NCBI RefSeq assembly: GCF_022012305.1
Contig: NZ_JAKLTM010000006.1
Coordinates: 62,001-126,000 of the forward strand
DNA length: 64,000 bases
Direction of reading: 5' to 3'
From: Ramlibacter paludis
GTDB taxonomy: Bacteria > Pseudomonadota > Gammaproteobacteria > Burkholderiales > Burkholderiaceae_C
The notes beneath the pieces were generated by a model. That model saw only the letters and a list, made by a program, of their open reading frames with translations. It did no database searches and was not told the DNA's origin. Position 1 is the first letter of the stretch. Each line of letters opens with the position of its first letter. Positions 47,802-64,000 of this stretch are shown here, in pieces. A program made the position numbers and the translations under genes.

Positions 47802-50800
47802 TCAGCGCAGCCGCACCGCCTCCGGCATGTTCTCGCCCAGCTGCGTGGCCTTGTTGCGCCAGGCATTGGCTTCGGAGCTGTCCTTGCCGACGCTGCCCTC
47901 GCCCTTGGTGTAGATCTCGTACAGGCGGCGCGCGGCGGGCCCGCTGCCGGCGTTGGCAGCCTGGCGATAGGCGCTGACGGCGGCGGCCATGTTGCCGCTC
48001 TGCTCGGCCGACCGCGCCTGGGCCAGCAAGGCAGACGCGCTCGGACGCTCGGCGGGCGGCGGTGCGGGTGCCGGCGTGGGGGCCGGCGCGGGAGCCGGCG
48101 TCGGCGCGGGGGTTGGTGCGGGCGTGGGCGCCGGTGTGGGGGCCGGCGTGGGCGCCGCAGCCGGTGGCGGCGGCGCGGGCGTCGGTGCCGGCGCGGTGGC
48201 CGGCGGCGGCGCCGTCGGTCCCGCCTTCGGGGCCGGGGTAGGCGCCGGCGTCGGTGCGGGACGCGGCGTCGGGGCCGGCGTCGGCGCAGGCGTGGGAGCC
48301 GGCGCCGGGGCGGCGGGACGCGCCGGTGCGGGAGCGGGCGTCGGCGCGATGCTCGCCGGCGGCGGGGCAACGGGCGCCTGCGCCGGCGGCCGCGGCGCGG
48401 GCGTCGGCGTGGTCAGCTTGGCCTGCTGCTCGTCGGCCGGCTGGGTGGCCTCGGTTTTCGCGGACTCGGTCTTGCCCGAACCCATCATCATCTTCACGCC
48501 GACCCCGATCGCACCCAGTGCGACGACGCCGGCGATGGCGACCGGCACCATCTTCGACTTGGGCTTGGCGGCCGGCTCGTCTTCGTCGTCGACGCGGCGG
48601 GCCACCGGCGCGGCCGGCACGGCCGGGGGTGCCGGCGGACGCAGCTTCGCCTCGGCCTCGGCGCGCTCGCGTTCGCGGCGGCGCGCCTCCTCGGCCTCCT
48701 TCTTCGCGTCGTCGATCGCCTTCTGCTTGGCGTCGGCGGCTTCCTTCAGGCGCGCGGCCTCGAGGGCACGCTGCTGCGCCAGGCGCTTGTCTTCCTCGCG
48801 CCGCCGCGCCTCGACGGCCTCCTTCTGCCGCTGCTCTTCGACCTTGCGGTTCTCGGCCGCCTGGCGCTCGGCTTCGAGCCGCTTCGCCTCTTCCTGCTTC
48901 TTCGCTTCCGCCGCCTGCTGGCGCGCCTTGGCTTCCCGCTCCTGCGCTTCGCGCTTCGCGGCTTCCTCGGCCTGGCGCTTCGCTTCGGCGTCGCGCTTTT
49001 CCTTCTCGATGCGGAAGGCCTCGGCCTCGGCGGCCAGGCGCTTCGTCTCTTCCTGCTTCCTGGCTTCCTCGGCCGCCTTGCGGCGCGCTTCGGCTTCGCG
49101 CTGCTCCTGCTCGATGCGCTTGGCCTCCGCCTCGGCGGCCACGCGGCGCGCTTCTTCCTGCCGCTTCGCCTCCGCCTCCGCGGCCGCGCGGCGCGCGTCT
49201 TCCTGGCGCTTGGCCTCCTCGGCCTGCCGCCTGGCTTCGGCTTCGCGCTGCGCTTCCTCGATGCGCCTGGCCTCCGCTTCGGCGGCGATGCGGCGCGCTT
49301 CTTCCTGCCGCTTCGCCTCTTCCGCCGCCTGCCGCTGGGCCTCCTCGGCCGCCTGGCGCTGCGCTTCCGCTTCGCGCTGCTCGGCCTCGATGCGGCGCGC
49401 TTCCTGTTCGGCCTCCGCGCGCTTGGCGTCCTCGAGCCGGCGCCTTTCCTCGGCGGCCTGGCGCTTGGCAGCCGCCTCGCGTTGCATTTCCTCGTCTTCC
49501 TTGCGGCGCGCCTCGGCCAGGCGCGCCGCCTCGGCCTGGCGTGCGGCTTCGGCCTGCCGCGCCGCTTCCGCCTGTCGCGCCGCCTCCGCGGTGGCACGGG
49601 CCTGGGCATCGCTCAGGTCGGCGGGCCGCGCGCTGGTGTCGGACTGGCGCGCGACGACGGCGCCCGCCTTGGCCTCCTCGATCACCTTCAGTGCCGCCGG
49701 CGAAATGACCGCGGGCGCCGAGGCAGTCACCACGGCGCCGGTGTTGCTCAGGCCCAGGCCGCTGGCCGACGACGGACCGCCCGGCAGCGAGGGCATCTGC
49801 GAAGGCAGGCGCGTCTCTTCGTCGGCGCCTACGGTGCCTTGCCCGGTCCCCTGCCCCGTGCCGGTGCCGGTACCGGTGCCCTTGTTGCTGGCATCCGGGT
49901 CCCAGCCCAGCTTGCGCAGGCGGCGCTGCGCCAGCGCGGCGAACTTGCCGTTGGGGAAGCTCTCGACGAAGGTGACGAAGTCATGGACGTCGTCGGAGTC
50001 CTTGATGTCCTTCCAGTACTCGAGCTCCAGCTCGAGGTTGATGGACGAGGCCTGGCTCGCGGCCGTCTCCGGCGGCTTGGGGGCGACGGTCGGCGGCGGC
50101 GCCGTGGACGACACCGAGGGCGGCCCGGCGCCGGTGGCGCCTACGCGCTGTCCCGCGGACTTCAGGGCCAGGGCGAACTCGCGCGCCGAGGAGAAGCGCT
50201 CGTCGCGGTTCTTCGCCAGCGCCTTGGCCACCACGGCGTCCATCGCGCGCGGCAGCTTGGGGTTGTGGTACGAAGGCGGCGGCGGCAGCGTGTTGACGAT
50301 CTGGTGGATCACCGCGAACGGGTTGTCGCCGTCGAACGGCCGCACGCCGGTGAGCAGTTCGTACAGCACCACGCCGGCGGCGAACAGGTCGGAGCGCGCG
50401 TCGACGCGCTGGCCCTGCGCCTGCTCCGGCGACATGTAGCGCGGCGTGCCGATGCCGGCGGCGCCCACCTGGGTGCGGTTCGCCGCGTCGGGGTCCTGGA
50501 TGCGCGCCACGCCGAAGTCCATCAGCTTGACGCGGCCCTTCTCGATCAGCATGTTCCCCGGCTTGACGTCGCGGTGCACGATGTTGTTTTCGTGCGCGTG
50601 GTCCAGCGCGGCCAGCAGGTCGAGGATCATCGACACCACCATCGCCGTCGAGAAGTGCTCGCCCTGGTCGAGGTGGTGCTTGAGGTCGTCCCCGTCGATG
50701 AACTGCATGACCAGGTACGCGACTTCCTCGTCGCGCCCGAAGTCGAAGATCGGGACGATGTTGGGGTGCAGCAGGCGCGCGGCGGCCAGCGCCTCCGTGC

Positions 50801-50972
50801 GGAAACGGAACTCGTATTCCTCGGCGGCCTTGGGGTCCAGCTTCTCGACGATGATCGTCTTGATCGCCACGTGCCGCTGCAGCACGGGGTCGTGGCCTTC
50901 GTAAACCAGACCCATCGCGCCCTTGCCCAGGGTGCGGATGATCTCGTAGCGGCCTAGCTTTTTACCGGTCAC
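47802..50972 (-). CDS. transmembrane Ser/Thr protein kinase with long coiled-coil
   Basis: This roughly 1056-residue protein has a Hanks kinase domain at about residues 8-270 (G-loop LGKGAMGLVYEG, VAIK, HRDVKPGN, LMDFGVA, MSPEQ). A Gly-Thr-Gln repeat linker follows, then about 350 residues of Ala/Glu/Arg/Gln-rich helix predicted as coiled coil, and one TM helix (VPVAIAGVVALGAIGVGV). A Pro-Ala-Thr repeat of about 110 residues precedes a Sel1/TPR-like end. The N-terminus up to the TM is cytoplasmic by this layout, and the Pro-rich tail would be periplasmic. I prefer GTG at 50972 (VTGKKLGRYEII); the open frame runs to a TTG at 51023. Neither has a clear Shine-Dalgarno. It lies directly downstream of the giant adhesin. 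Confidence 0.9.
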   Translation of the reverse strand: MTGKKLGRYEIIRTLGKGAMGLVYEGHDPVLQRHVAIKTIIVEKLDPKAAEEYEFRFRTEALAAARLLHPNIVPIFDFGRDEEVAYLVMQFIDGDDLKHHLDQGEHFSTAMVVSMILDLLAALDHAHENNIVHRDVKPGNMLIEKGRVKLMDFGVARIQDPDAANRTQVGAAGIGTPRYMSPEQAQGQRVDARSDLFAAGVVLYELLTGVRPFDGDNPFAVIHQIVNTLPPPPSYHNPKLPRAMDAVVAKALAKNRDERFSSAREFALALKSAGQRVGATGAGPPSVSSTAPPPTVAPKPPETAASQASSINLELELEYWKDIKDSDDVHDFVTFVESFPNGKFAALAQRRLRKLGWDPDASNKGTGTGTGTGQGTGQGTVGADEETRLPSQMPSLPGGPSSASGLGLSNTGAVVTASAPAVISPAALKVIEEAKAGAVVARQSDTSARPADLSDAQARATAEAARQAEAARQAEAARQAEAARLAEARRKEDEEMQREAAAKRQAAEERRRLEDAKRAEAEQEARRIEAEQREAEAQRQAAEEAQRQAAEEAKRQEEARRIAAEAEARRIEEAQREAEARRQAEEAKRQEDARRAAAEAEAKRQEEARRVAAEAEAKRIEQEQREAEARRKAAEEARKQEETKRLAAEAEAFRIEKEKRDAEAKRQAEEAAKREAQEREAKARQQAAEAKKQEEAKRLEAERQAAENRKVEEQRQKEAVEARRREEDKRLAQQRALEAARLKEAADAKQKAIDDAKKEAEEARRRERERAEAEAKLRPPAPPAVPAAPVARRVDDEDEPAAKPKSKMVPVAIAGVVALGAIGVGVKMMMGSGKTESAKTEATQPADEQQAKLTTPTPAPRPPAQAPVAPPPASIAPTPAPAPARPAAPAPAPTPAPTPAPTPRPAPTPAPTPAPKAGPTAPPPATAPAPTPAPPPPAAAPTPAPTPAPTPAPTPAPTPAPAPAPTPAPAPPPAERPSASALLAQARSAEQSGNMAAAVSAYRQAANAGSGPAARRLYEIYTKGEGSVGKDSSEANAWRNKATQLGENMPEAVRLR

Positions 50973-51125
50973 AGGGTGGTGATGCGTGGACTGCGCGCCG
51001 CCACAGTTTAAGGTCTGGCGCAAGGCCGCACCATGCGGGCGGCCAAATAAGTCACGCAGGCGTCTGCGACGCCTCCGTGGAAACCCCCGCCGGCGCAGGG
51101 CCGGACGGGGTGGTGGGTGCCGGCC

Positions 51126-54100
51126 TTACTGGCAGTTCGGCTCGTTGCGGCGCTGTTCGTCCAGGCAACGCGGCTCGCGGATCAGGAGGCTCGGGAAGCT
51201 CAGGGGCGCCACCACCGCATCGAGCGGCAGGTTGCCGAACATCACCAGGTTCTCCAGGCCGAGCAGGCCGGCGTCGGCGCGCTGCTGCATGCGCAGGAAG
51301 CGCGCGATCTCGGAATAGATCGACGACACCGCGCTCACGCTGAAGCCCAGCACGCGGGCGGTGACGACGTCCGTGCCCACGTTGCCGGCGATCCAGTAGT
51401 TCTTGGACACCGGGTTGACGCCCGTGATCACGATCGACGGCGTCTGCGGGTGGATGTACATCGGGTCGTCCGGCGTGTTCAGGCTGCCGTCCGGCGAGAT
51501 GGTCACGTCGATCTTCTCGGTGGCGATCACGCCCGGCGAGCCGTTGGTGATGGCGATGTCGGAGTCCTCGAACTTGATCGTCGGGGACACGACCGTCAGC
51601 AGGCGCACCGGCGACAGCTGCGGCGTGTTGATCACCAGGTTGGCCGGCGACTGCAGCGTGACCGAGGCGGTGGGCGCCACCTGCATCTTCGCCACGGTCA
51701 GCGTGCTGGCGCTGGTGTCGAGCAGGTTCACGGTGGTGGAGTTGCCCGCCACCGAGACGCTGCCGGCGAAGTCGCCGCGCACGTCGAGGTTGCCGTCCAG
51801 CGAGAAGGTGGTGTTGTTGCCGATGCTGCTGCCGGTGTTGGTGGCCGAGATGCCGCCCGGGCCGGCGGTGAGGGTCGCATTGGCCGCCGTCACCAGTGCA
51901 TCGTTGTACACCTGCCCCGCCGAGCCGGTCGTCGTCAGCGTGCCGCCGTTCACCACCGTGCGGCCGCCCGCGTCGGTGGTCAGGCTGGCCAGGTTCACCG
52001 CGCCGCCGAAGGTGGTGTCGGCGCCGCTGTTGGCCGTGACCGCCACGTTGCCGGTCAGCGTGCTGCCGAAGGTGATCGGGCCGCTGCCTGCGTTGAACGT
52101 CGTGTTGCCGCCCAGGGTGACCGCATCGCCGTAGTTCTGGCCGGCCGCGCCGCTGGTGGTCACCGAGCCGCCGTTGATGGCGGTGGTGCCGCCGCCGCCG
52201 GTGGCCAGGCTGGCCAGCGCCGTGGTGTTGCCGACCGCACCGGTGAAGGTGGTCGCACCCGCGGTGTTGACCGTCAGCGCCTGCGTGCCGTTGACCGTGT
52301 TGGCGAAGGTGATCGCGCCGCCGCCGGTGCTGGTCGCCGTGACCGGGCCGGTCAGGTTGACCAGCTCGTTGTAGGTCTGGGCGCCGCTGGTCGTGACGTT
52401 GGCGCCGAGGTTGACCGTGCCGTCGGCGTTGGTCGTCACGGAGGCCACGTTGACCGCGCCGTTGAAGGACGTCGCCGTGTTGCCCGTGCTGTTCACCGTC
52501 AGCGCCTGGGCGCCGCCGATGGTGCTGCCGAAGGTCACGCCGGCGCCGGTCAGCGTCGTGGCTGCGCCCAGGGTCACCGCGTCGCCGTAGTTCTGCGCGC
52601 CGGTGGTGGTGACGGTGCCGCCGTTGATCACGGTGCTGCCGTCGGCGTTGGTCGTGACCGAGGCCACGTTCACCGCGCCGTTGAAGGTGGTCGCCGTGCC
52701 GCCGGTGCTGTTGACCGTCAGCGCGTTCGCGCCGCCTACCGTGCCGTTGAAGGTCACGCCCGCGCCGGTCAGCGTGGTCGCCGCGCCCAGGGTGACCGGG
52801 TCGCCATAGGCCTGCGCGCCCGTCGTGGCCACGGAGCCGCCGTTGATCACCGTGCTGCCGTCGGCGTTGGTCGCCAGGGAGCCGATGCTGACCGCGCCGT
52901 TGAAGGTGGTCGCCGTGCCGCCGGTGGTGTTGACCGTCAGCGCCTGCGCGCCGCCGACCGTGCTGCCGAAGGTCACGCCCGCACCGGTGGCCGTCACCGC
53001 GGCGGCGAGGGTCACGGCGTCGCCGTAGTTCTGCGCGCCGGTGGTGGTGACGTTGCCGCCCAGGCTGGTGGTGCCGCCGGCATTGGTCGTCAGCGAACTC
53101 AGCGCCGTGGTGTTGCCGACCGCGCCGCCGAAGGTGGTGGCGCCGCTGGTGTTGGCGGTGAGGCTGACGGCGCCGTTGACCGTGTTGCCGAAGGTGATGG
53201 CGCCGGCTCCGGCGTTCAACGTCGTATTGGCGCCGAGCGTCACGGCATCGCCGTACACCTGGCCGGCCGCGCCGGTCGTGGTCACCGAGCCGCCGTTGAT
53301 GGCCGTGGTGCCGCCGGCATTGGTGGCCACCGAAGTCAGCGCCGTCGTGTTGCCGACTGCGCCGGCGAAGGTGGTCGCGCCGCCGGTGTTCACGGTGAGC
53401 GCGCGCGCGCCGTTGACCGTGTTGGCGAAGGTGATGGCGCCGTTGCCCGTGCTGGTGGCCGTCACGTCGGCCGCCAGCGTCACGGCATCGCCGTAGCTCT
53501 GCGCGCCGGTGGTGGTGACGTTGCCGCCCAGGCTGGTGGTGCCGCCCGCATCGGTGGCCAGCGAGGCCAGCGCCACGCCGGAGCCGACGGTGCTGCCGAA
53601 GCTCGTCGTGCCGGCCGTGTTGACCGTCAGGGCCTGCGCGCCTGCGGTCGTGCCGTTGACGGCGCCGGTGATGCCGATGGCGCCGCTGCCGGTGCTGGTC
53701 AGCGTCGTATTCGCCGCCAGCGTCACGGTGTTGCCGTAGCTCTGGGCCCCCGCGGTCCTCACGTTGCCGGTGAGCGTGGTCGCCCCGGACACGCTGAGGA
53801 ACTCGAGCGGCGTCGCGGCGCCGACCGTGCTGCCGAAGCGGGCCGGGCCGGTGATGGTCAGCGACTCGGCACCGGCCGTCGTGCCTTCGACGGTTCCGGT
53901 GAAATCGGCCCCGGCGCCAGTCAGCGCAACGTCCGTGCTCAGGACCACGTTGTCCCCGTAGGTCTGGAAGCCGGTCGTCGTGATGCTGGCGTTGATGTCG
54001 GTGGTGCCGCCGCCGTTGGTGGTCAGGCTGGCCAGCGGCGTGGTGCCGCCCACCGTGCCCAGGAAGCTGGTGAGGCCGCCGGTGGTGACCGTCAGCGCTT

Positions 54101-57100
54101 GCGCGCCGTCGACCGTGTTGTTGAACGCGATCGCGCCGTTGCTGGTGCTGGTCGCCATCACCGGGCCGGTCAGCGTGACCGCCTCGCCCCAGGTCTGGCC
54201 GGCCACCGTGGTGACGTTGCCGCCCAGCACGGTGCTGCCGCCGGCGTTGGTGGCGATGCTGGTGAGCGGCGTCGTGCCGCCGACCGTGCCGAAGGTCGTC
54301 ACGCCGGTGGTATTGGCGGCCAGCGAGAAGGCGCCGTCGAGCGTGCCGCCGAAGGTGATCGCGCCCGCGCCGGCGTTCAGCGTCGTGTTCGCACCCAGGG
54401 TGACGTTGTCGCTGTAGACCTGGCCGGCCGCGCCGGTGGTGGTGACCGAGCCGCCGTTGATGGCGGTGGTGCCGCCGCCGTTGGTGGCCAGGCTCGTCAG
54501 CGCGGTGGTGTTGCCGACCGCGCCGGTGAAGGTGGTCGGGCCCGCGGTGGTCACGGTCAGCGCCTGCGCGCCGTTGACCATGCTGCCGAAGGTGATCGCG
54601 CCGCCGCCGGTGCTGGCCGCCGTGACCGGGCCGGTCAGGTTGACCGCGTCGCCGTAGGTCTGGGCGCCGCTGGTGGTGACGTTGGCGCCCAGGTTGGTGA
54701 CGCCGTCTGCGTTGGTGGCCAGGGACGCGATGTTGACCGCGCCGTTGAACGTGGTCGCCGTGCCGCCGGTGCTGTTGACCGTCAGCGCCTGCGCGCCGCC
54801 GACCGTGCTGGCGAAGGTGACGCCTGCGCCGGTCAGCGTGGTCGCCGCACCCAGCGTCACCGCGTCGCCGTAGTTCTGTGCGCCGCTGGTGGTGACGGTG
54901 CCGCCGTTGATGACCGTCGTGCCGTCGGCATTGGTCGTGACCGAGGCCACGTTGACCGCGCCGTTGAAGGTCGTCGCCGTGTTGCCGGTGCTGTTGACCG
55001 TCAGCGCCTGTGCGCCGCCGACCGTGCTGCCGAAGGTGACGCCGGCACCGGTGAAGGTGGTCGCCCCGCCCAGCGTGACCGCATCGCCGTAGTTCTGCGC
55101 ACTGGTCGTGGTCACCGAGCCGCCGTTGACGACGGTGGTGCCGTCGGCGTTGGTGGTCAGCGAGCCGACGTTGACCACGTTGTTGAAGGTGGTCGCCGTG
55201 CCGCCCGTGGTGTTCACGGTCAGTGCTTGCGGGCCGCTGACGGTGCCGTTGAAGGTGACGCCCGCGCCGGTCAGCGTGGTGGCCGCGCCGAGCGTGACCG
55301 GGTCGCCGTAGGTCTGCGCGCCCGTGGTCGTGACGCTGCCGCCGTTGATGACGGTGCTGCCGTCGGCGTTGGTGGCGAGCGAGGCGATGTTGACTGCGCC
55401 GTTGAACGTCGTCGCGGTGCCGCCGGTGGTGTTGACGGTCAGTGCCTGCGCACCGCCGACGGTGCTGCCGAAGGTGACGCCGGCGCCCGTCAGCGTGGTG
55501 GCCGCACCCAGCGTGACGGCATCGCCGTAGTTCTGCGCGCCGGTCGTGGTGACGGTGCCGCCGTTGATCACGGTGCTGCCGTCGGCGTTGGTCGTGACCG
55601 AGGCCACGTTGACGGCGCCGTTGAAGGTCGTCGCCGTGTTGCCGGTGCTGTTGACCGTCAGCGCCTGCGCGCCGCCGACCGTGCTGCCGAAGGTGACGCC
55701 GGCACCGGTGAAGGTGGTGGCCCCGCCCAGCGTGACGGCATCGCCGTAGTTCTGCGCGCCGCTGGTGGTGACCGAGCCGCCGTTGACGACGGTGGTGCCG
55801 TCCGCATTGGTCGTCAGCGAGCCGATGTTGACCACGTTGTTGAAGGTGGTCGCCGTGCCGCCCGTGGTGTTCACGGTCAGGGCTTGCGGGCCGGTGACCG
55901 CGCCGTTGAAGGTGACGCCAGCCCCCGTCAGCGTGGTGGCCGCACCGAGCGTGACGGGGTCCCCGTAGGTCTGCGCGCCCGTGGTGGTGACGCTGCCTCC
56001 GTTGATGACGGTGCTGCCGTCTGCATTGGTCGTGACCGACGCCACGTTGACCGCGCCGTTGAAGGTGGTCGCCGTGCCGCCGGTCGTGTTGACCGTCAGC
56101 GCCTGCGCGCCGCCGACCGTGCTGCCGAAGGTGACGCCGGCGCCCGTGAAGGTGGTGGCCGCGCCCAGCGTGACCGCGTCCCCGTAGTTCTGAGCGCCGC
56201 TGGTGGTGACCGCGCCGCCGTTGACTGCGGTGGTTCCGCCTCCGTTGGTGACCAGGCTGGTGAGCGGCGTCGTGTTGCCCACGGCGCCGGTGAAGGTGGT
56301 CAGGCCCGCGGTGGTCACGGTCAGCGCCTGCGCGCCGTTGACCGTGCTGCCGAAGGTGATCGCGCCGCCGCCGGTGCTGGTCGCAGTCACGGGGGCGGTC
56401 AGGTTGACCGCATCGCCGTAGGCCTGCGCGCCGCTGGTGGTGACGTTGGCGCCGAGGTTGGTGACGCCGTCGGCGTTGGTGGCCAGGGACGCGATGTTGA
56501 CCGCGCCGTTGAACGTGGTCGCCGTGCCGCCGGTGGTATTGACGGTCAGTGCCTGCGCACCGCCGACGGTACTGGCGAAGGTCACGCCGGCGCCGGTCAG
56601 CGTGGTCGCCGCACCCAGCGTGACCGCGTCGCCGTAGTTCTGTGCGCCGCTGGTGGTGACCGTGCCGCCGTTGATGACCGTCGTCCCGTCGGCGTTGGTC
56701 GTGACCGAGGCCACGTTGACAGCGCCGTTGAAGGTCGTCGCCGTGTTGCCGGTGCTGTTGACCGTCAGTGCCTGCGCGCCGCCGACCGTGCTGCCGAAGG
56801 TGACACCGGCGCCCGTCAGTGTCGTCGCCGCACCCAGCGTCACCGCGTCACCGTAGTTCTGTGCGCCACTGGTGGTGACCGTGCCGCCGTTGATGACGGT
56901 GGTGCCGTCGGCGTTGGTCGTCAGCGAGCCGATGTTGACCGCGCCGTTGAACGTGGTTGCCGTGGCGCCAGTGGTGTTGACCGTCAGCGCCTGCGGTCCG
57001 CTCACCGTGTTGCCGAAGGTCACGCCCGCGCCGGTGGCCGTCACGGCAGCTGCCAGCGTCACCGCATCGGCGTAGTTCTGCGCGCCGGTGGTCGTCACGT

Positions 57101-60100
57101 TGCCAGCCAGGCTGGTTGTGCCGCCGCCGTTGGTGGTCAGCGTGGCGAGCGGCGTGGTGGCGCCGACAGTGCTGCCGAAGGTGGTCAGCCCGCCGGTGGT
57201 GACCGTGAGGTCTTCCACGCCGGCCGTCGTGCCGTCGACCGTGCCGGTGAAGGTGATGGCGCCGTTGGCCGTGCTGGTGAGCACGGAGTCGGCTGCCAGG
57301 ACCGTCGCACCGCCGTAGGTCTGGCCGCCGGCGGTGGTGACGTTGCCCGTGATCGTCGTGCCGCCGCTGGTGCTGACGAATTCCAGCGGCGTGGTGGCGC
57401 CGACGGCGCCGCCGAATGTGGTGCTGCCTGCAACCGTGGTCAGCGACTCGGTGCCGGCCGTGGTGCCGTCGACCGTGCCGCCGAAGCTCACTGCGCTACC
57501 GGTCAGCGTGACGTCGGTGGTCAGGACCACGTTGTCCGTGTAGGTCTGCGCGCCGGTGGTGGTGACGCTGGCATTCAGGTCCGTGATGCCGCCGCCGTTG
57601 GTGGTCAGGCTGGTCAGCGGCGTGGTGCCGCCGACCGTGCCGGCGATCGTCGTCAGGCCGGAAGTGGTGACCACCAGCGCCTGTGCGCCGTCGACGGTGC
57701 CGGTGGCGGCGAAGTTGATCGCCCCGCCCCCGGTGCTCTGCACGGTCACGTCGTTGGTCAGCGTCACGGCGCCGGTGTAGTCCTGCTGGCCGCTCGTGGT
57801 GACGTTGCCGCCCAGGCTTGCCGCGTTGGTGGCCAGCGAAGCCGCGCTGATGTTGGTGCCGTTGGACGTGGTCAGGCTGTTGAAGCCCGTGGCCGCGCCG
57901 GCCACCGTGACCCCGCCGGTGGCGGTGAGCGAAAGGTTGTTGGCGTTGCCGCTGAGCGTGCTGGAGTAGCTCACCGCGCCGCTGCCGGCATTGACCGCGA
58001 CCGGACCGGTCAGGGTCACGGCGCCGACGTAGCTGACGTTGTCGTTGCTCGTCGTCACGTCGCCCGTGGTGTTGATGCCGCCCGCCCCCGTGAGCGTGAC
58101 GGCGTCGCCGGCGGTGATATCGCCTGCCGCGGCGATGTTCAGCGCGCCGGCGTTGGTGGCGATCGCAACCTGGCCGGTGCCGGAATTGACGGCCGCCGTG
58201 ACGTTGAGCGCGCCCGCGTTGGTGAAGCCGAAATTGCCGTTGGTGGTCACCGCACCGAGGTTGGTGACGCTGTTCGCGTTGGTCAGCGCCACCGAACTCC
58301 CGCCGTTGACGGTGACGGTGCCGGCGCTGAGCGTCGTGCCGGCGTTCTGCGTGACCGCGCCGGAGAGGTTGTCGGTCCCGGCCCCGCCGATGACGACGGT
58401 GCCGGTCGCCCCGGTGGAGACGTCGCCGAGCACGGCCGTGGTCGCGTCGATGATCCGCACCGCGGTCGCAGAGTTGCTGGTCGTGGTGATCGAGCCGGCC
58501 AGGTTGATCGCGCCGTCGTTGCCGTCGATGGTCACGTCGCCTGTGCCGCCGTCGATGCCCGTGCCGACTTGTTGCGTGACCCCGGTGCCCGCCAGTGTGA
58601 CTCCCGTCCCGGACACGTTGCTGTTCACCGAAAGCGCGCCGGTCGTGGTAACCGACACCGGGCCCGTGCCGCCCGTGACCGCGCCGGTGATCGACAGCCC
58701 GCCGGCATCGGTCATCGTGAAGCCGCCGCTGGTGGTGAAGCCGTTGAGCAGGGAAGCATCACCCGTGATCGTCGCGGTGGTGCCGGCGAAGCCCGTCAAG
58801 GTGGTCGTGGCGACGTCCGCGGTGATGCTGCCGGAGGCCGTCACCAGGTTCACGGCAGCGCCGGACAAGGTGCCGGCCGTGCGCGTGATGGTGTCGTCCG
58901 CGTTCAGGTTGGCGGTTCCGGTGCCGGCTGCCACGTTGGCACCGATCGCGATGTCGCTGCCCGCGCCGGTGGCCGAAAGCGCCACGCCGTTGGCCCCGCT
59001 GACGGAGTTGTTCACCGCCAGGGTGCCGCCGCTCGTTGCGATGCTGACCGAGCCGGTGGTGTCCTGGACGCCGCCGCTGATCACCAGGCCGCCGCCCGCA
59101 TCGCTGAACTGGAAGCCACCGCTGCTGACGGTCGGGCCCAGGTTGGTGACGGTGTTGGCGTTGGTCAGGTTCACGGTGCTGCCGGCCGCAACCGTCAGGG
59201 TGCCGGTGTTGATCACCGTGCCGCCGCTTTGCTGCACCCCGCCGTTCAGGCTGTCCACGCCCGCCGTCCCGAGCCGCGTCGTGCCGGTGGCGCCCGTGGT
59301 GATGTTGCCGAGCGTGGCAAGGGCGTTCGCGTCCAGGATCTGGACCGCCGTGGCACTGTTGCTGGTGGTGACGATGGAGCCGGCGAGGTTGAAGCCGCCG
59401 TCGTTGGCGTCCAGCAGGACGTCGCCCGAGCCGCCATTGATGGTCGTGCCGGCGGACTGGGTCACGCCGGTGCCGGCCAGGCTGACGCCGACGCCGCTCA
59501 CGTTGTTGCCCACGCTCAGCGCGCCGCTGGTGGTGAGGGACACCGGGCCGGCGCTGTCCGCCACCACGCCGGAGACCGTCAGGCCGCCGACATCGTTGAG
59601 GGTGAAGCCGCCCGCGCTGGTGACGTTGCCCAGGACCGTGATCGCGTTCGCGTTGGGCAGCGACACCGTGCTGCCGCCGTTGACTTGCAGCGTGCCGGCG
59701 CTGATGGTGGTCGTGCCGTTCTGCGTGACCGCGCCGGAGAGGTTGTCCCCCAGGGCCCCGCCCAGCGTGACGACGCCCAGCGCACCGGTCGTGATGTTCC
59801 CCAGCGCCGCGGTCGTGGAGTCGATGATGCGGACCGCGGTGACGCTGTTGCTGGTGGTGGTCAGGGCACCGGCGAGGTTGATGGCGCCGTCGTTGCCGTC
59901 CACCAGGATGTCGCCTGCTCCGGCGTTGACGGTGCTGCCCGCGGCTTGCGTGACGCCCGGGCCGATGAGGCTCACCCCGGTGCCGGTGACGTTGTTGGCT
60001 CCCAGCACCAGCGGGCCGCCGGCGGTGGTGATGGACACCGCGCCCGTGCCGCCCGAGACGGCGCCGGTCAGGGTCAGGCCGCCGGTGCTGTCGTTCAGCG

Positions 60101-63100
60101 CGAAGCCGTTGGAACTGAAGGAGCCGAGGTTGGTGATGGTGTTGCCGTTGGGCGAGAGCAAGACCGAGCCGGCGGCCGAGCCGGTCAGCGTGTTGGCGTT
60201 GATGATGCCGCCCTGCGTGATGTTGCCGGCGGAGGTCAGCGTCAGCGTGCCGGCACCGGCATCCACGTTCTGCCCCATGTTGATGTCGCCCGACGTGTTG
60301 GTGGTCAGGTTGACGCCGAGGCCCGTCACGGGGGCGCTGATGCTCAGGTTGCCGCCCGCCGTGGCGATGGTGACCGAGCCCGGCGCGGAAACGCCCGTCC
60401 CGCTCACCACCAGGCCGCCGGCCGTGTCGGTGAAGCTGAAATTGCCGGTGGTCGCGCCGGAGCTGGCCAGGGTGTTCACCGTGTTGGCGGCCGTGGACAG
60501 CGCCACGTCGGTGCCGTTGACGGTCAACGTGCCGGCCGCGACCACGCCGGCAGCCGACTGGCTGACGGTTCCAGCGGCGCTCAGCACCGTTGCGCCGGAG
60601 GTGTTACCCACGTTGGCGTTCACCACGATGTTGCCGCCGGCCGTGGAAGTCAGCGTCGTGGAACCCGTGCCGGAGGCGTTTACCGCGCCCGAAACCGTGA
60701 TGGTGCCGCCTGCCGTGACGTCGTAGGCGGCGCCGCCGGCCGCGCCGTTGACGACGCCGCCGACGGTGTTGAGCGTCACCGCGTCGGATTCGTTGACGAA
60801 GACGTCGCCGGTGGTGCGCGTGCGCGCGGCCAGCGTAGTGGCCTGGGTGTTGATTCGCGCGCCGGTGGCGCCGACGCCGGTCAGGCCATCGAGCACCACG
60901 GTCGGCGCGGCGACCGTGCCGCTGCCGCTGATGGCGCCAGCGCCGTCGACGTCACCGAAACCGGCCGTCAAGGAAGCCGTGCCCGCCGTGGAGGTCACCA
61001 GGGACCCGGCGCCCAGGACGATGTTGTCGCCGGCTTGCAGAATGACATCGCCGCCGGTGGACTGCACCGTGACGCCCGGATTGACCGTGAGGTCGTCGCC
61101 GGAGCCGGCGCTCTCGCCGGCGGTCACGGTAATGGTGCCCGCCGAAGTCATGTTCACGGCGATGGTGACCGGGCTGCTGGCGCTGAGGGTGACCGCACCA
61201 CTGCCGCCGCTCGAGGCGCTCAGGCCGTCGAGCGACGCGACGGTCAGCGCGCCGCTGTTGGCGATGTTGACGCCGCTTCCTCCGGTGTTGCTGAAGGCCA
61301 GGTTGCTGACAGCCGTCTCCACCGGGTCCGCACTGGAGCCGATGCCTCCCGCGGAGCGGATGGCCAGGTTGGCCACGGTCAGGTCCGCGCCGACCGCATT
61401 GTTGTCGATCACGGCGGCGCCCGTGCGCAGCGACAACAGGCTGGCGCCCGCCGGGGAAATCGCCGCATTCACGAAGATGTTGCCGCTGGTTGCGGAGCCG
61501 ATGTTCAGCGTGCCGCCGGTGGCGCTGACCCGGTCGATCTCGGCGTCGGTGAGGCTCAGTTCGCCCGCCACCTCGGTGCCCAGGCTGATCGCGCGGCCAC
61601 CCGTGCGGTTCTGGAGAGAGACCGTCGGGCCGGACACCGTGCCATTCAACTGCATGTTGTCCGCGCTGACGGTGACGGCGCCGGCCGTGGTCGAGATGCT
61701 GGCGCCGCCGTTGACGGTGAAGCTGTCGGCGGCCACCGTGACGCCGTTGTTGGCCGTGGTCGCGCCATTGACGGTGATCGCGCCCGGCGAGGTGAGGTTC
61801 ACCGAGTCGAAGCTGCCGCTCAGGTTGCTCGCCGCGGCCTGGACCGTATAGGTGTTGACGCCCGTGATGGCGCCGGTGCTGACCGTGCCCGTGGTGCCGG
61901 CATCGATGGTCAGGTTGTTCCCGTTGCCGGTGATCGCACCGGTCGTCACGTTGGCGCCCGTCGAAGCGCCACCGGTCGTATCGAGCGTGACATTGCCGGC
62001 CAGGTTGACGCTGTCGTTGAACGTCTGCGCACCGGTCGTGACGACTGTGCTCTTCAGGGTCGTGGAGCCGACCGCGTCCGTCGTGACCGAGCCAAGGGGA
62101 ATGCTGTTGCCGACGGCACCGAAGAAGCGCGTCGCGCCCGCCGTGTTGATGACCAGGTTTTCCGTGGCCGCCGTGCCGTTGACGCTCTGGTTGAAGTCGA
62201 TGTTGCCGCCGCTCACGCTGGTGAGCGTGCGGCTGGCCCCGACCGTCACGGCTCCGCTGTAGATCTGGCCGGCGTCGGTCGTCACGTTGCCGTTGATGGA
62301 GGTCGGGCCATTGGCCAGCAAGGCCTCCAGGGCCGTCGTGCTGCCGGCCGCCGCGTTCAGCACCAGGTTCGTGCCGGCGGCGCTGATCAGCGCCTGGCCC
62401 CCCGCGGTGACGCCGTCGACCAACCCATTGAACGTGACGGTCGTGCCCGTGAAAGTGATGTCGTCCTTCAGCGTCACTGCGCCGGTGTAGGTCTGGGTGC
62501 CGCTGGTCGTCACGTTGCCGCCCAGGCTGGCCGAGCTCACGCTGAGGCTCGTTGCGTTCAGCGTGGTGCCGTTGGTCGTGTTCAGGTTGTTGACGCCGGA
62601 AACGGTCCCCGCCGTAGCCCCGCTCGGCGCGGTCACGAGGAGGTTGTTCCCGTTCCCCGTCACGTTGCCGGCTGTCACGGTGGTGCCCGCCGTCAAGCTG
62701 ACGGGTGCGCCCAGGCTCAACGGCCCGGTCAGGCTCACGCTCCCGTTGCTGGCCGTGACGTTGCCATTCAGGGTAAGGGTGCCGCCGCCGGTGGCGGCCA
62801 GTGCGACGCTTTCGTTGGTGGAAGTCGCCGAGCCGATGGTCAGCGGGCCGCCGTTCTGGGTCGTGATGCTCAGCGTGCCGGGCGCCGTGAAAGCCCCGAG
62901 GAACAGGCCGCCGCCCGTGTCGACGATCGTGAAGTCGTTGGTGGTGCCGGCGCCGAAGTTCGGGCTCAGCGAGCCGCTGAAGTCCGACCCGGTCACGTTG
63001 TAGTTGCCGCCAATCGTCAGTGCGCCCGTGGTCACCAGCCCGTTGACGGAGCTCAGCGTGACGTTGTTCGCGGTGAGCGAGCCCGTGGTGAGGGAAGTGG

Positions 63101-64000
63101 GCGCAGTGATCGAGAGGTCGTTGGCGCCGCCGGTGATGTTGCCGCTGTTGAACGTGGTGCCGGCGCTCAGCGTGGAATTGCCGGTCAGCGTGATGCCGCC
63201 GGTGTAGTTTTGTGCGCCCGTCGAGGTCACGTTGCCGCCCAGGCTGGCGGAGCTCGCGGAGACGCTGGTCGCGTTGAGGTTGGTGCCGACGGCGGTCGTC
63301 AGCACGTTGACGCCGCTCACCACGCCCGCGGTCGCGCCGCCAGGCGCGCTCAGGTCCATGGTGTTGCCGTTGCCCGTGACGTTGCCGAGGGAAACCGTAT
63401 TGCTCGCCGTCAGCTGGGTGGCGCCGCCCAGGCTGATGGCGCCGGTGACGCCGATGCTGCCGCCGGTGACGGTCGAAGAGAAGGTATGCGGCGTCGAGCT
63501 GCCGTTGTTGGTGATGACGATGCCCGCCGTCCCGGAGTTCAGCGGAGCGTTCAAGGTGACGGCCCCGACGCCGCTTGCCGGCGCGGCCCCCGGATCGTTG
63601 GCCGAGAGGGTGATCGAGCCGTTGGTGGTGCTGACGCTGGCGTTGACGGCGATGTTGTTGCCGGCTTGCGCAGTGATGCCCGCACCGTTGACCGTCATCG
63701 CGATCGGGTTGTTGACCGTGATGTTGTTCTTGGCCTGCAGCGTGACCGTGCTCGGCGCCGAGTTGATGGTGGCCGAAGCGATGGTGACGTCGGATGCTGG
63801 CGTGTCCGAGAACTGGTCGACGTCACCCAGCGCGGCACCACCGACGTTGGACACGATGATGTTCAGGGGATCGAGCAGCCAGTTGCCTGTCGCGCCATGC
63901 GCTGCAGAAGTATTGACCGTGGTGGACTCGGCGACGACCAAATTCTCCTTGCCCGAGGTCTCCACCTTGCCGCCGTTGCCGCCGTTCGCGCCGCCCCTTG
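51126..64000 (-). CDS. giant filamentous-haemagglutinin-like repeat adhesin (N-terminus beyond window)
   Basis: The frame is open from the window edge to the stop at 51126-51128, about 4290 residues, and its true start lies beyond 64000. Near the edge it reads GGNGGKVETSGKENL...GNWLLDPLNIIV, the typical FhaB/HMW haemagglutinin-repeat region. The rest is Gly/Thr/Val/Asn-rich beta-solenoid made of two repeat families, and then a unique C-terminal domain. There is no autotransporter barrel, so two-partner secretion is likely. The last residues are CLDEQRRNEPNCQ: two Cys with ten residues between, in a protein otherwise free of Cys by my reading. In HMW1 such a pair tethers the adhesin to the outer membrane. 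Confidence 0.88.
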   Translation of the reverse strand, partial: RGGANGGNGGKVETSGKENLVVAESTTVNTSAAHGATGNWLLDPLNIIVSNVGGAALGDVDQFSDTPASDVTIASATINSAPSTVTLQAKNNITVNNPIAMTVNGAGITAQAGNNIAVNASVSTTNGSITLSANDPGAAPASGVGAVTLNAPLNSGTAGIVITNNGSSTPHTFSSTVTGGSIGVTGAISLGGATQLTASNTVSLGNVTGNGNTMDLSAPGGATAGVVSGVNVLTTAVGTNLNATSVSASSASLGGNVTSTGAQNYTGGITLTGNSTLSAGTTFNSGNITGGANDLSITAPTSLTTGSLTANNVTLSSVNGLVTTGALTIGGNYNVTGSDFSGSLSPNFGAGTTNDFTIVDTGGGLFLGAFTAPGTLSITTQNGGPLTIGSATSTNESVALAATGGGTLTLNGNVTASNGSVSLTGPLSLGAPVSLTAGTTVTAGNVTGNGNNLLVTAPSGATAGTVSGVNNLNTTNGTTLNATSLSVSSASLGGNVTTSGTQTYTGAVTLKDDITFTGTTVTFNGLVDGVTAGGQALISAAGTNLVLNAAAGSTTALEALLANGPTSINGNVTTDAGQIYSGAVTVGASRTLTSVSGGNIDFNQSVNGTAATENLVINTAGATRFFGAVGNSIPLGSVTTDAVGSTTLKSTVVTTGAQTFNDSVNLAGNVTLDTTGGASTGANVTTGAITGNGNNLTIDAGTTGTVSTGAITGVNTYTVQAAASNLSGSFDSVNLTSPGAITVNGATTANNGVTVAADSFTVNGGASISTTAGAVTVSADNMQLNGTVSGPTVSLQNRTGGRAISLGTEVAGELSLTDAEIDRVSATGGTLNIGSATSGNIFVNAAISPAGASLLSLRTGAAVIDNNAVGADLTVANLAIRSAGGIGSSADPVETAVSNLAFSNTGGSGVNIANSGALTVASLDGLSASSGGSGAVTLSASSPVTIAVNMTSAGTITVTAGESAGSGDDLTVNPGVTVQSTGGDVILQAGDNIVLGAGSLVTSTAGTASLTAGFGDVDGAGAISGSGTVAAPTVVLDGLTGVGATGARINTQATTLAARTRTTGDVFVNESDAVTLNTVGGVVNGAAGGAAYDVTAGGTITVSGAVNASGTGSTTLTSTAGGNIVVNANVGNTSGATVLSAAGTVSQSAAGVVAAGTLTVNGTDVALSTAANTVNTLASSGATTGNFSFTDTAGGLVVSGTGVSAPGSVTIATAGGNLSISAPVTGLGVNLTTNTSGDINMGQNVDAGAGTLTLTSAGNITQGGIINANTLTGSAAGSVLLSPNGNTITNLGSFSSNGFALNDSTGGLTLTGAVSGGTGAVSITTAGGPLVLGANNVTGTGVSLIGPGVTQAAGSTVNAGAGDILVDGNDGAINLAGALTTTSNSVTAVRIIDSTTAALGNITTGALGVVTLGGALGDNLSGAVTQNGTTTISAGTLQVNGGSTVSLPNANAITVLGNVTSAGGFTLNDVGGLTVSGVVADSAGPVSLTTSGALSVGNNVSGVGVSLAGTGVTQSAGTTINGGSGDVLLDANDGGFNLAGSIVTTSNSATAVQILDANALATLGNITTGATGTTRLGTAGVDSLNGGVQQSGGTVINTGTLTVAAGSTVNLTNANTVTNLGPTVSSGGFQFSDAGGGLVISGGVQDTTGSVSIATSGGTLAVNNSVSGANGVALSATGAGSDIAIGANVAAGTGTANLNADDTITRTAGTLSGAAVNLVTASGSITADVATTTLTGFAGTTATITGDASLLNGFTTSGGFTMTDAGGLSITGAVTGGTGPVSVTTTGALSVNSNVSGTGVTLAGTGVTQQVGTGIDGGTGDVTIDGNDGAINLAGSITTTSNSATAVRIIDATTAVLGDVSTGATGTVVIGGAGTDNLSGAVTQNAGTTLSAGTVTVNGGSSVALTNANSVTNLGAVTTNGNFGFTNAGALNVTAAVNSGTGQVAIATNAGALNIAAAGDITAGDAVTLTGAGGINTTGDVTTSNDNVSYVGAVTLTGPVAVNAGSGAVSYSSTLSGNANNLSLTATGGVTVAGAATGFNSLTTSNGTNISAASLATNAASLGGNVTTSGQQDYTGAVTLTNDVTVQSTGGGAINFAATGTVDGAQALVVTTSGLTTIAGTVGGTTPLTSLTTNGGGITDLNASVTTTGAQTYTDNVVLTTDVTLTGSAVSFGGTVDGTTAGTESLTTVAGSTTFGGAVGATTPLEFVSTSGGTTITGNVTTAGGQTYGGATVLAADSVLTSTANGAITFTGTVDGTTAGVEDLTVTTGGLTTFGSTVGATTPLATLTTNGGGTTSLAGNVTTTGAQNYADAVTLAAAVTATGAGVTFGNTVSGPQALTVNTTGATATTFNGAVNIGSLTTNADGTTVINGGTVTTSGAQNYGDAVTLGAATTLTGAGVTFGSTVGGAQALTVNSTGNTATTFNGAVNVASVTTNADGTTVINGGTVTTSGAQNYGDAVTLGAATTLTGAGVTFASTVGGAQALTVNTTGGTATTFNGAVNIASLATNADGVTNLGANVTTSGAQAYGDAVNLTAPVTATSTGGGAITFGSTVNGAQALTVTTAGLTTFTGAVGNTTPLTSLVTNGGGTTAVNGGAVTTSGAQNYGDAVTLGAATTFTGAGVTFGSTVGGAQALTVNTTGGTATTFNGAVNVASVTTNADGSTVINGGSVTTTGAQTYGDPVTLGAATTLTGAGVTFNGAVTGPQALTVNTTGGTATTFNNVVNIGSLTTNADGTTVVNGGSVTTSGAQNYGDAVTLGGATTFTGAGVTFGSTVGGAQALTVNSTGNTATTFNGAVNVASVTTNADGSTVINGGTVTTTGAQNYGDAVTLGAATTLTGAGVTFGSTVGGAQALTVNTTGGTATTFNGAVNIASLATNADGSTVINGGSVTTTGAQTYGDPVTLGAATTLTGAGVTFNGTVSGPQALTVNTTGGTATTFNNVVNVGSLTTNADGTTVVNGGSVTTTSAQNYGDAVTLGGATTFTGAGVTFGSTVGGAQALTVNSTGNTATTFNGAVNVASVTTNADGTTVINGGTVTTSGAQNYGDAVTLGAATTLTGAGVTFASTVGGAQALTVNSTGGTATTFNGAVNIASLATNADGVTNLGANVTTSGAQTYGDAVNLTGPVTAASTGGGAITFGSMVNGAQALTVTTAGPTTFTGAVGNTTALTSLATNGGGTTAINGGSVTTTGAAGQVYSDNVTLGANTTLNAGAGAITFGGTLDGAFSLAANTTGVTTFGTVGGTTPLTSIATNAGGSTVLGGNVTTVAGQTWGEAVTLTGPVMATSTSNGAIAFNNTVDGAQALTVTTGGLTSFLGTVGGTTPLASLTTNGGGTTDINASITTTGFQTYGDNVVLSTDVALTGAGADFTGTVEGTTAGAESLTITGPARFGSTVGAATPLEFLSVSGATTLTGNVRTAGAQSYGNTVTLAANTTLTSTGSGAIGITGAVNGTTAGAQALTVNTAGTTSFGSTVGSGVALASLATDAGGTTSLGGNVTTTGAQSYGDAVTLAADVTATSTGNGAITFANTVNGARALTVNTGGATTFAGAVGNTTALTSVATNAGGTTAINGGSVTTTGAAGQVYGDAVTLGANTTLNAGAGAITFGNTVNGAVSLTANTSGATTFGGAVGNTTALSSLTTNAGGTTSLGGNVTTTGAQNYGDAVTLAAAVTATGAGVTFGSTVGGAQALTVNTTGGTATTFNGAVSIGSLATNADGSTVINGGSVATTGAQAYGDPVTLGAATTLTGAGVTFNGTVGGANALTVNSTGGTATTFNGAVNVASVTTNADGSTVINGGTVTTTGAQNYGDAVTLGAATTLTGAGVTFGSTIGGAQALTVNSTGNTATSFNGAVNVASVTTNADGTVNLGANVTTSGAQTYNELVNLTGPVTATSTGGGAITFANTVNGTQALTVNTAGATTFTGAVGNTTALASLATGGGGTTAINGGSVTTSGAAGQNYGDAVTLGGNTTFNAGSGPITFGSTLTGNVAVTANSGADTTFGGAVNLASLTTDAGGRTVVNGGTLTTTGSAGQVYNDALVTAANATLTAGPGGISATNTGSSIGNNTTFSLDGNLDVRGDFAGSVSVAGNSTTVNLLDTSASTLTVAKMQVAPTASVTLQSPANLVINTPQLSPVRLLTVVSPTIKFEDSDIAITNGSPGVIATEKIDVTISPDGSLNTPDDPMYIHPQTPSIVITGVNPVSKNYWIAGNVGTDVVTARVLGFSVSAVSSIYSEIARFLRMQQRADAGLLGLENLVMFGNLPLDAVVAPLSFPSLLIREPRCLDEQRRNEPNCQ
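52000..57800 (-). repeat. 72-74-residue tandem beta repeats in the adhesin
   Basis: About two dozen copies of a module of 216-222 bases each encode a pattern like TTSGAQNYGDAVTLGA...GVTFGSTVGGAQALTVN...FNGAVNVASVTTNADG. Copy boundaries are visible as regular recurrences of the GAQ-Y-GDAV segment. Copies differ by only a few residues, which suggests recent gain by unequal exchange. Confidence 0.9.
54889..56202 (-). repeat. two tandem copies of a 657-bp higher-order repeat
   Basis: Positions 54889-55545 and 55546-56202 are nearly identical blocks, each made of three 72-74-residue modules in the same order. Parts of this pattern recur with an offset of about 1764 bases (54673 and 56437; 54889 and 56653), showing nested duplications. 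Confidence 0.8.
58170..60000 (-). repeat. second adhesin repeat family, about 160 residues per unit
   Basis: Three related units carry the pattern GVTQ-x(n)-GDV-DGNDGAINLAGS-TTSNSATAV-ILD...GVD-LSG-V-Q-G. The GVTQ positions are near 59.95, 59.46 and 58.57 kb. The third copy is separated from the second by an extra, unrelated stretch of about 400 bases. These are more diverged than the 219-bp family. Confidence 0.7.

Follow-up and report, generated by a model that had tools for sequence, protein, structure and literature searches.

The question raised by this locus is how a giant adhesin that has no barrel domain of its own may be kept on the cell that secretes it. The window, i.e. the whole 64,000-nucleotide stretch of DNA that was analysed (G000:C18:62001-126000, where G000 is the genome it comes from), was described in a first-pass annotation as encoding the end of a two-partner-secreted adhesin in which two terminal Cys might form an HMW1-like disulfide anchor, in a Burkholderiales organism. 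The host was placed correctly, the genus being Ramlibacter, and the proposed anchor gains support as far as sequence goes, as the pair is kept in relatives; from it, we infer a disulfide and retention of the adhesin. Related TpsAs that end in one Cys point to a second, separate arrangement, which is treated further below.

The adhesin gene and its secretion partner

The tpsA gene begins beyond the window, extending to about G000:C18:127207. Its stop-to-stop frame is 4,745 aa long, and the protein counted from the inferred start Met (MNTQSAAK...), which was placed by means of a long signal-peptide-like segment, has about 4,693 aa. A TPS domain is found at its N-terminus (PF05860, E 1.7e-33, 117 bits against a cut-off of 33.5; TIGR01901, 3.1e-21); it should be noted that the match came from the N-terminal piece, and that Pfam gave none on the 4,701-aa frame. 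As had been anticipated from the sequence, a TpsB gene lies upstream beyond the window, 58 bases from the inferred tpsA start. It encodes 570 aa with a ShlB barrel (9.3e-27) and POTRA_2 (2.5e-14), and its one Cys is inside the signal-peptide region as judged by eye. The simple gene caller used here missed some genes, including this TpsB. The assignment to the two-partner type thus holds by both the TPS domain and the adjoining TpsB.

Table 1. Coordinates of the features discussed. Plain numbers are window positions; the others are given by locus (L) or by genome and contig.
Feature	Position	Strand	Remarks
C-terminal 4,290 aa of the TpsA adhesin gene	51126..64000	-	open frame; TPS domain N-terminal, beyond the window
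First Cys of the pair (residue -13)	51165..51167	-	invariant in the alignment of six C-termini
Second Cys of the pair (residue -2)	51132..51134	-	invariant in the alignment of six C-termini
Conserved C-terminal domain, ~225 aa	51129..51803	-	common to five same-genus relatives; matches no Pfam or NCBIfam family
Ser/Thr protein kinase gene adjoining tpsA on the downstream side	47802..51023	-	Pkinase 8.9e-50
Antisense open frame, 4,294 codons	51117-63998	+	
TpsB gene upstream of tpsA	L005:15267-16979		outside the window
Kinase-like proteins with Cys-pair end	L189:11786-14860; L190:12446-15364; L191:4704-6863 (-)		
Caspase-like gene (by eye)	L192:15005-16384		behind the Cys-pair TpsA of G325
Orphan lone-Cys TpsAs of G000	L007:4095-7130 (-), L008:4066-12351 (+)		contigs C16, C17
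Hub operon of G000: FecR-like protein with lone penultimate Cys, then TpsB	L200:8277-11331 (G000:C1, about 896276-899330)		likewise L209-L247

The terminal C-x10-C pair, which had been noted as the only Cys seen in more than 4,000 residues, proves to be the only one in the full protein: TpsA has exactly two Cys, at positions -13 and -2 from the C-terminus, both of them within the window, and three further Cys codons of the frame precede the inferred start Met. The C-terminal end reads ...REPRCLDEQRRNEPNCQ*, and the tail of the same minus-strand frame is RCLDEQRRNEPNCQ. The chance that two randomly placed Cys would both fall within the last 13 residues is P ~7e-6, although conservation of the pair in all five relatives (see below) is the stronger argument. 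In agreement with the reported lack of a barrel domain, the last 457 residues match no Pfam family, barrel or other, so that no autotransporter-type anchor was found there; NCBIfam gave no match to the C-terminus either. A single-sequence AlphaFold prediction of the C-terminus is uninformative, with a mean pLDDT of 49 and values of 24-44 (blocks of ten) over the last 141 residues. The long open frame antisense to the adhesin gene (Table 1) is probably a by-product of high G+C content and repeats.

Conservation of the cysteine pair

A profile of the C-terminal 225 aa matches 6 of 60 Ramlibacter genomes, G000 included. Beyond the genus, the domain was not found in 299 genomes of the family by a single-sequence search, G000 alone matched when the profile was run over 399 genomes of the order, and a two-sequence alignment of the C-termini retrieved no relatives from the named genomes scanned. 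The family is therefore narrow within these samples. Identity to the window domain is 78% in G339 and 31-39% in the other four relatives, and the Cys pair is present in all six aligned C-termini. It takes the form C-x10-C at -13/-2 in G000, G339 and G313, and C-x9-C at -12/-2 in G272 and G301; in G307 it is C-x9-C at -17/-7, which shows that the spacing from the end can vary. Among 26 invariant columns are the C, E, Q and C of the tail motif C-x2-EQ-x(5,6)-C. A seventh Cys-pair TpsA, of another type, emerged from the tail survey described below (G325, -11/-2). Exactly two Cys, both terminal, are likewise found in the four other full-length TpsAs with a plausible start, namely: G272 (2,763 aa), G301 (2,977 aa), G307 (2,260 aa) and G325 (~3,870 aa).

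TpsB is encoded directly upstream of the Cys-pair TpsA in five of five cases, and none of the four TpsB partners that were read has a Cys after the signal-peptide region, which was judged by eye. On the downstream side, with neighbours assigned by sequence likeness, a kinase gene follows tpsA in G000, G272, G301, G307 and G339, and is not found in that place in G313. The Ser/Thr kinase-like proteins behind the Cys-pair TpsAs of G272, G301 and G307 themselves end in a Cys pair (e.g. PCALKAGTSC), and this tail is absent from the window's own kinase. Behind the Cys-pair TpsA of G325 lies a gene that looks caspase-like by eye.

A putative cysteine hook

A TPS domain, a TpsB partner and two Cys near the C-terminus are features that the window adhesin shares with HMW1/HMW2 and HxuA of Haemophilus influenzae. 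In HMW1, the pair is formed by Cys1518 and Cys1528 of 1536 residues; the window adhesin is about three times as long, and its pair at -13/-2 is nearer to the end than those of HMW1 and HxuA, which sit further in. It also differs from both in the neighbour seen at its gene, i.e. the Ser/Thr kinase gene, and with a C-terminus outside Pfam and NCBIfam the likeness is one of anatomy, not of shown homology of the anchor. The C-terminal disulfide loop of HMW1 and HxuA is held to lock TpsA in TpsB (PMC5422565; PMC4873976). One of these sources defines the HMW subfamily of TpsA by a C-terminal disulfide, and describes HxuA (Cys 855 and 861 of 884) as more released when both Cys are replaced (PMC4873976). 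CdrA of Pseudomonas aeruginosa, another giant TpsA, is described as probably held in CdrB by a C-terminal cysteine hook and as cut by LapG (PMC7616799, PMC4694147, PMC11898600).

We consider it likely that the window adhesin is a type Vb TpsA with such a C-terminal cysteine hook, tethered in TpsB by a disulfide loop. Through its TPS domain the protein would engage the product of the adjoining upstream tpsB gene; its long repetitive body would then pass outward N-terminus first, with the last stretch staying in the periplasm or the pore. The two terminal Cys would then close a small disulfide loop (C-x10-C, CLDEQRRNEPNC), predicted to form in the periplasm and too bulky for the TpsB barrel, and the adhesin would remain tethered. 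Since the four TpsBs that were read have no Cys after the signal-peptide region, an intramolecular loop of the HMW1/HxuA/CdrA type appears to be the simplest reading, and it is likely that the conserved pair ties the giant adhesin to the cell. DsbA-like proteins give six matches in G000.

Nothing in the sequence proves retention, and release is the fate of some TpsA proteins such as ShlA, which is described as having no C-terminal Cys (PMC13192263). That the window adhesin is released, with the pair merely stabilising its C-terminal domain, is nevertheless unlikely, as both Cys are invariant at the C-terminus while the identity of the domain falls to 31-39% in four of the five relatives. It is also rather improbable that the two Cys, instead of closing a loop, join the adhesin covalently to a different protein or to another copy of TpsA. 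Disulfides between the C-termini of separate chains are plausible in G000, because this genome encodes TpsAs with one terminal Cys and TpsAs of that kind are genetically linked to a FecR-like protein with a terminal Cys (see below); furthermore, the downstream kinases of G272, G301 and G307 end in a Cys pair like the TpsAs they follow. However, the Cys of the Cys-pair TpsA are even in number and its TpsB has none after the signal-peptide region, the one FecR partner that G000 was found to encode lies on a different contig, and the window kinase is without the Cys tail.

The CdrA precedent, in turn, would combine the hook with c-di-GMP-controlled cleavage by periplasmic LapG. CdrA and the window adhesin would be alike in having a terminal hook, but the LapG-type peptidase PF06035 has no match in G000 at E values up to 0.01, in a search that was positive in one of 14 control genomes, and CdrA-type release is for this reason very improbable. 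The tethering disulfide loop, our preferred reading, would by itself extend a known strategy, and would carry it to a new giant-adhesin family of an environmental Burkholderiales genus.

Terminal cysteines among the TpsAs of Ramlibacter

TPS domains were matched 141 times, in 55 of the 60 Ramlibacter genomes. C-terminal regions were surveyed for the 114 matches that lie in genomes other than G000 and in open frames of 600 aa or more (23 shorter ones were dropped), and 95 of these regions reach a stop whereas 19 run off the contig. Among the 95 tails, which include a few that look frameshifted, the last 40 residues contain one Cys in 56, none in 33, two in 4 and more than two in 2. A lone Cys lies within the last 8 residues of 54 tails, and 45 of these have no other Cys in the fetched region (up to ~420 aa). 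Counting the last 10 residues, 60 of the 95 tails have a Cys, compared with the 3.1 that the remainder of these regions would predict. The consensus of 28 chosen lone-Cys tails is approximately VxTFxxLxxxExxxQ...DIVVTDxxCxP, where the Cys is invariant by selection. G000 itself encodes two orphan TpsAs with a single near-terminal Cys (..VDCRTE and ..DTQCKP). The lone-Cys arrangement is commoner than the Cys pair in Ramlibacter and, matched by a terminal Cys on a genetically linked FecR-like protein (see below), it is also seen in other families of the same class.

The kinds of tail differ in their genetic context. With G000 counted, 51 of the 56 TpsAs with a lone Cys are not accompanied by a ShlB-type TpsB within operon distance, whereas TpsAs without a terminal Cys have TpsB on either side in 26 of 34 cases (Fisher 5e-11, relatedness being ignored and broken contigs being able to hide neighbours); 42 further TpsAs in this count had unknown tails. 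In at least two of the five lone-Cys exceptions (G305 and G314), the TpsA and TpsB genes flank a FecR-like gene in one cluster.

A FecR-like protein with a terminal cysteine

At the seven hub loci that were read, a TpsB gene stands away from any TpsA and adjoins putA-like and ubiE-like genes (named by eye). It is preceded by the gene of an exported FecR-domain protein of about 455 aa, with PF04773 in two stretches; the order is given by gene calls at six loci and by a profile match at the seventh (G353). In five aligned FecR proteins, each of the two FecR repeats has one close pair of Cys, and a lone Cys is the penultimate residue. A scan of named genomes yielded 41 such loci, including Ramlibacter, Caenimonas, Rhodoferax, Polaromonas and Variovorax. 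Two broken loci (L248 and L249) were set aside, and the penultimate Cys is present in all 39 intact proteins, Cys being otherwise nearly absent from the last 120 residues. If Cys more than ~430 residues from the end, i.e. in the signal-peptide region, are left out, 38 of 39 proteins have an odd count of Cys, and the single even count includes an N-terminal Cys just inside this cut.

The TpsBs beside FecR have Cys only in the signal-peptide region or before it in 38 of 39 cases (by eye), the exception being the broken L248. A disulfide between TpsA and TpsB is disfavoured by this count, although not for every system: the mature part does contain Cys in some TpsBs of different types, and a G347 TpsB next to a lone-Cys TpsA (L176) has two.

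The retention_LapA model NF033682 matches all 11 FecR-like proteins scanned. Four are above its curated cut-off of 50 bits (50.9, 55.9, 55.2 and 54.7) and seven below (25.0-49.8), and the best stretches cover 53-66 of the 145 model positions, less than half. An AlphaFold model of FecR built from 39 sequences has a pLDDT of 86.4 and a pTM of 0.81, with the terminal Cys in a low-confidence tail. Its best Foldseek matches are FecR-type anti-sigma regulators (E 1.5e-5 to 3.8e-4). The match to the cell-surface anchoring domain PDB 5IX9 is weaker, short but close (rmsd 1.2 over 62 columns, TM 0.75 by target, Foldseek E 0.011; E 0.017 with the FecR sequence profile). To see a plug in the predicted fold is a fair reading, although FecR domains also serve in signalling. 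A likeness to the retention module of type I secreted LapA-type adhesins would consist in the NF033682 match and the 5IX9 alignment; unlike that module, the FecR-like protein is exported separately, has two FecR stretches and a terminal Cys, and is encoded beside a two-partner system.

Genetic linkage of the two lone cysteines

A TpsA-like frame ends just upstream of fecR at 10 of 40 loci, and in all ten it has a Cys third from the end. In a second FecR set, partly overlapping the genes of the 41-locus scan, 34 of 39 loci were read (the remainder being two partial genes and three Ramlibacter loci that had been covered before). The FecR Cys is 2-4 residues from the end in all 34, and the 12 upstream TpsA-like frames all have a Cys within their last four residues; two other upstream frames are one TpsB and one unrelated. 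Wider regions were then taken for 15 loci, of which 14 belong to other families of the class. Ten TpsA-like tails could be read here, from 8 genomes and 7 families, and in each of them a Cys stands 2-4 residues from the end; among the remainder, one tail is masked, one runs off and three regions have no TpsA. The single exception among the distant relatives read is L317 (G895:C2), where the FecR homologue is part of a fused frame of 1,212 residues that has no Cys at its end. Several of the FecR-adjoining TpsAs in these regions have further Cys, mostly as close pairs, and L308 and L310 have another Cys without a near neighbour, so that Cys parity is not perfect among TpsAs beside FecR.

The two features also occur together across genomes. 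FecR was found in 52 of the 60 Ramlibacter genomes, and lone-Cys TpsAs in 35 of these 52 vs. none of the 8 without FecR (Fisher 4e-4). Restricted to genomes with readable tails, the figures are 35 of 47 vs. 0 of 3 (P 0.02), the other 12 FecR genomes having no lone-Cys TpsA among those tails. In the 299 genomes of the family, FecR is present in 32 and the lone-Cys tail profile matches 8, all within the 32 (hypergeometric 7e-9, relatedness ignored). The other 24 FecR genomes have no tail match, with a profile that is insensitive and misses G097 despite its lone-Cys tails. In G110, FecR and a lone-Cys TpsA are encoded side by side.

A possible anchor encoded in trans

These results suggest a model to which we give an even chance, in which the lone-Cys TpsA is disulfide-bonded in the periplasm to a stand-alone FecR plug, and one hub FecR-TpsB pair serves scattered TpsAs. 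In this model, a separate exported protein with two domains resembling FecR and the retention module ends in one lone near-terminal Cys. This Cys and the terminal Cys of TpsA would form an intermolecular disulfide in the periplasm, and a folded, stand-alone plug, in place of a loop, would stop TpsA from leaving through TpsB. In Ramlibacter, the one hub pair would serve several scattered TpsA genes; outside Ramlibacter, TpsA and FecR, often with TpsB, are encoded in one cluster. Of 39 TpsBs beside FecR, 38 are free of Cys beyond the signal-peptide region; the Cys that have no obvious partner within TpsA, FecR and TpsB are therefore mostly the two at the termini, and a TpsA-FecR disulfide would for this reason be the simplest single model. 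Separate homodimers, or bonding to another partner, would be the alternatives for the lone-Cys class.

No description of a FecR link to two-partner secretion was found in the open-licence literature that was searched, and the arrangement is apparently undescribed; the lone Cys together with FecR is the part that would be new. If the model is true, FecR would be a third partner in two-partner secretion, and retention would be coupled to the periplasmic redox state. A disulfide link would give two-partner secretion a covalent, redox-sensitive and modular anchor encoded in trans, and would suggest why many Ramlibacter TpsA genes have no adjoining TpsB.

Finally, several lone-Cys TpsAs (among them L151, L116 and L132) have a long Pro-rich linker (TPAP / PSPS), which looks suited to bridging the pore or the periplasm, in front of a short, charged segment at the C-terminus.
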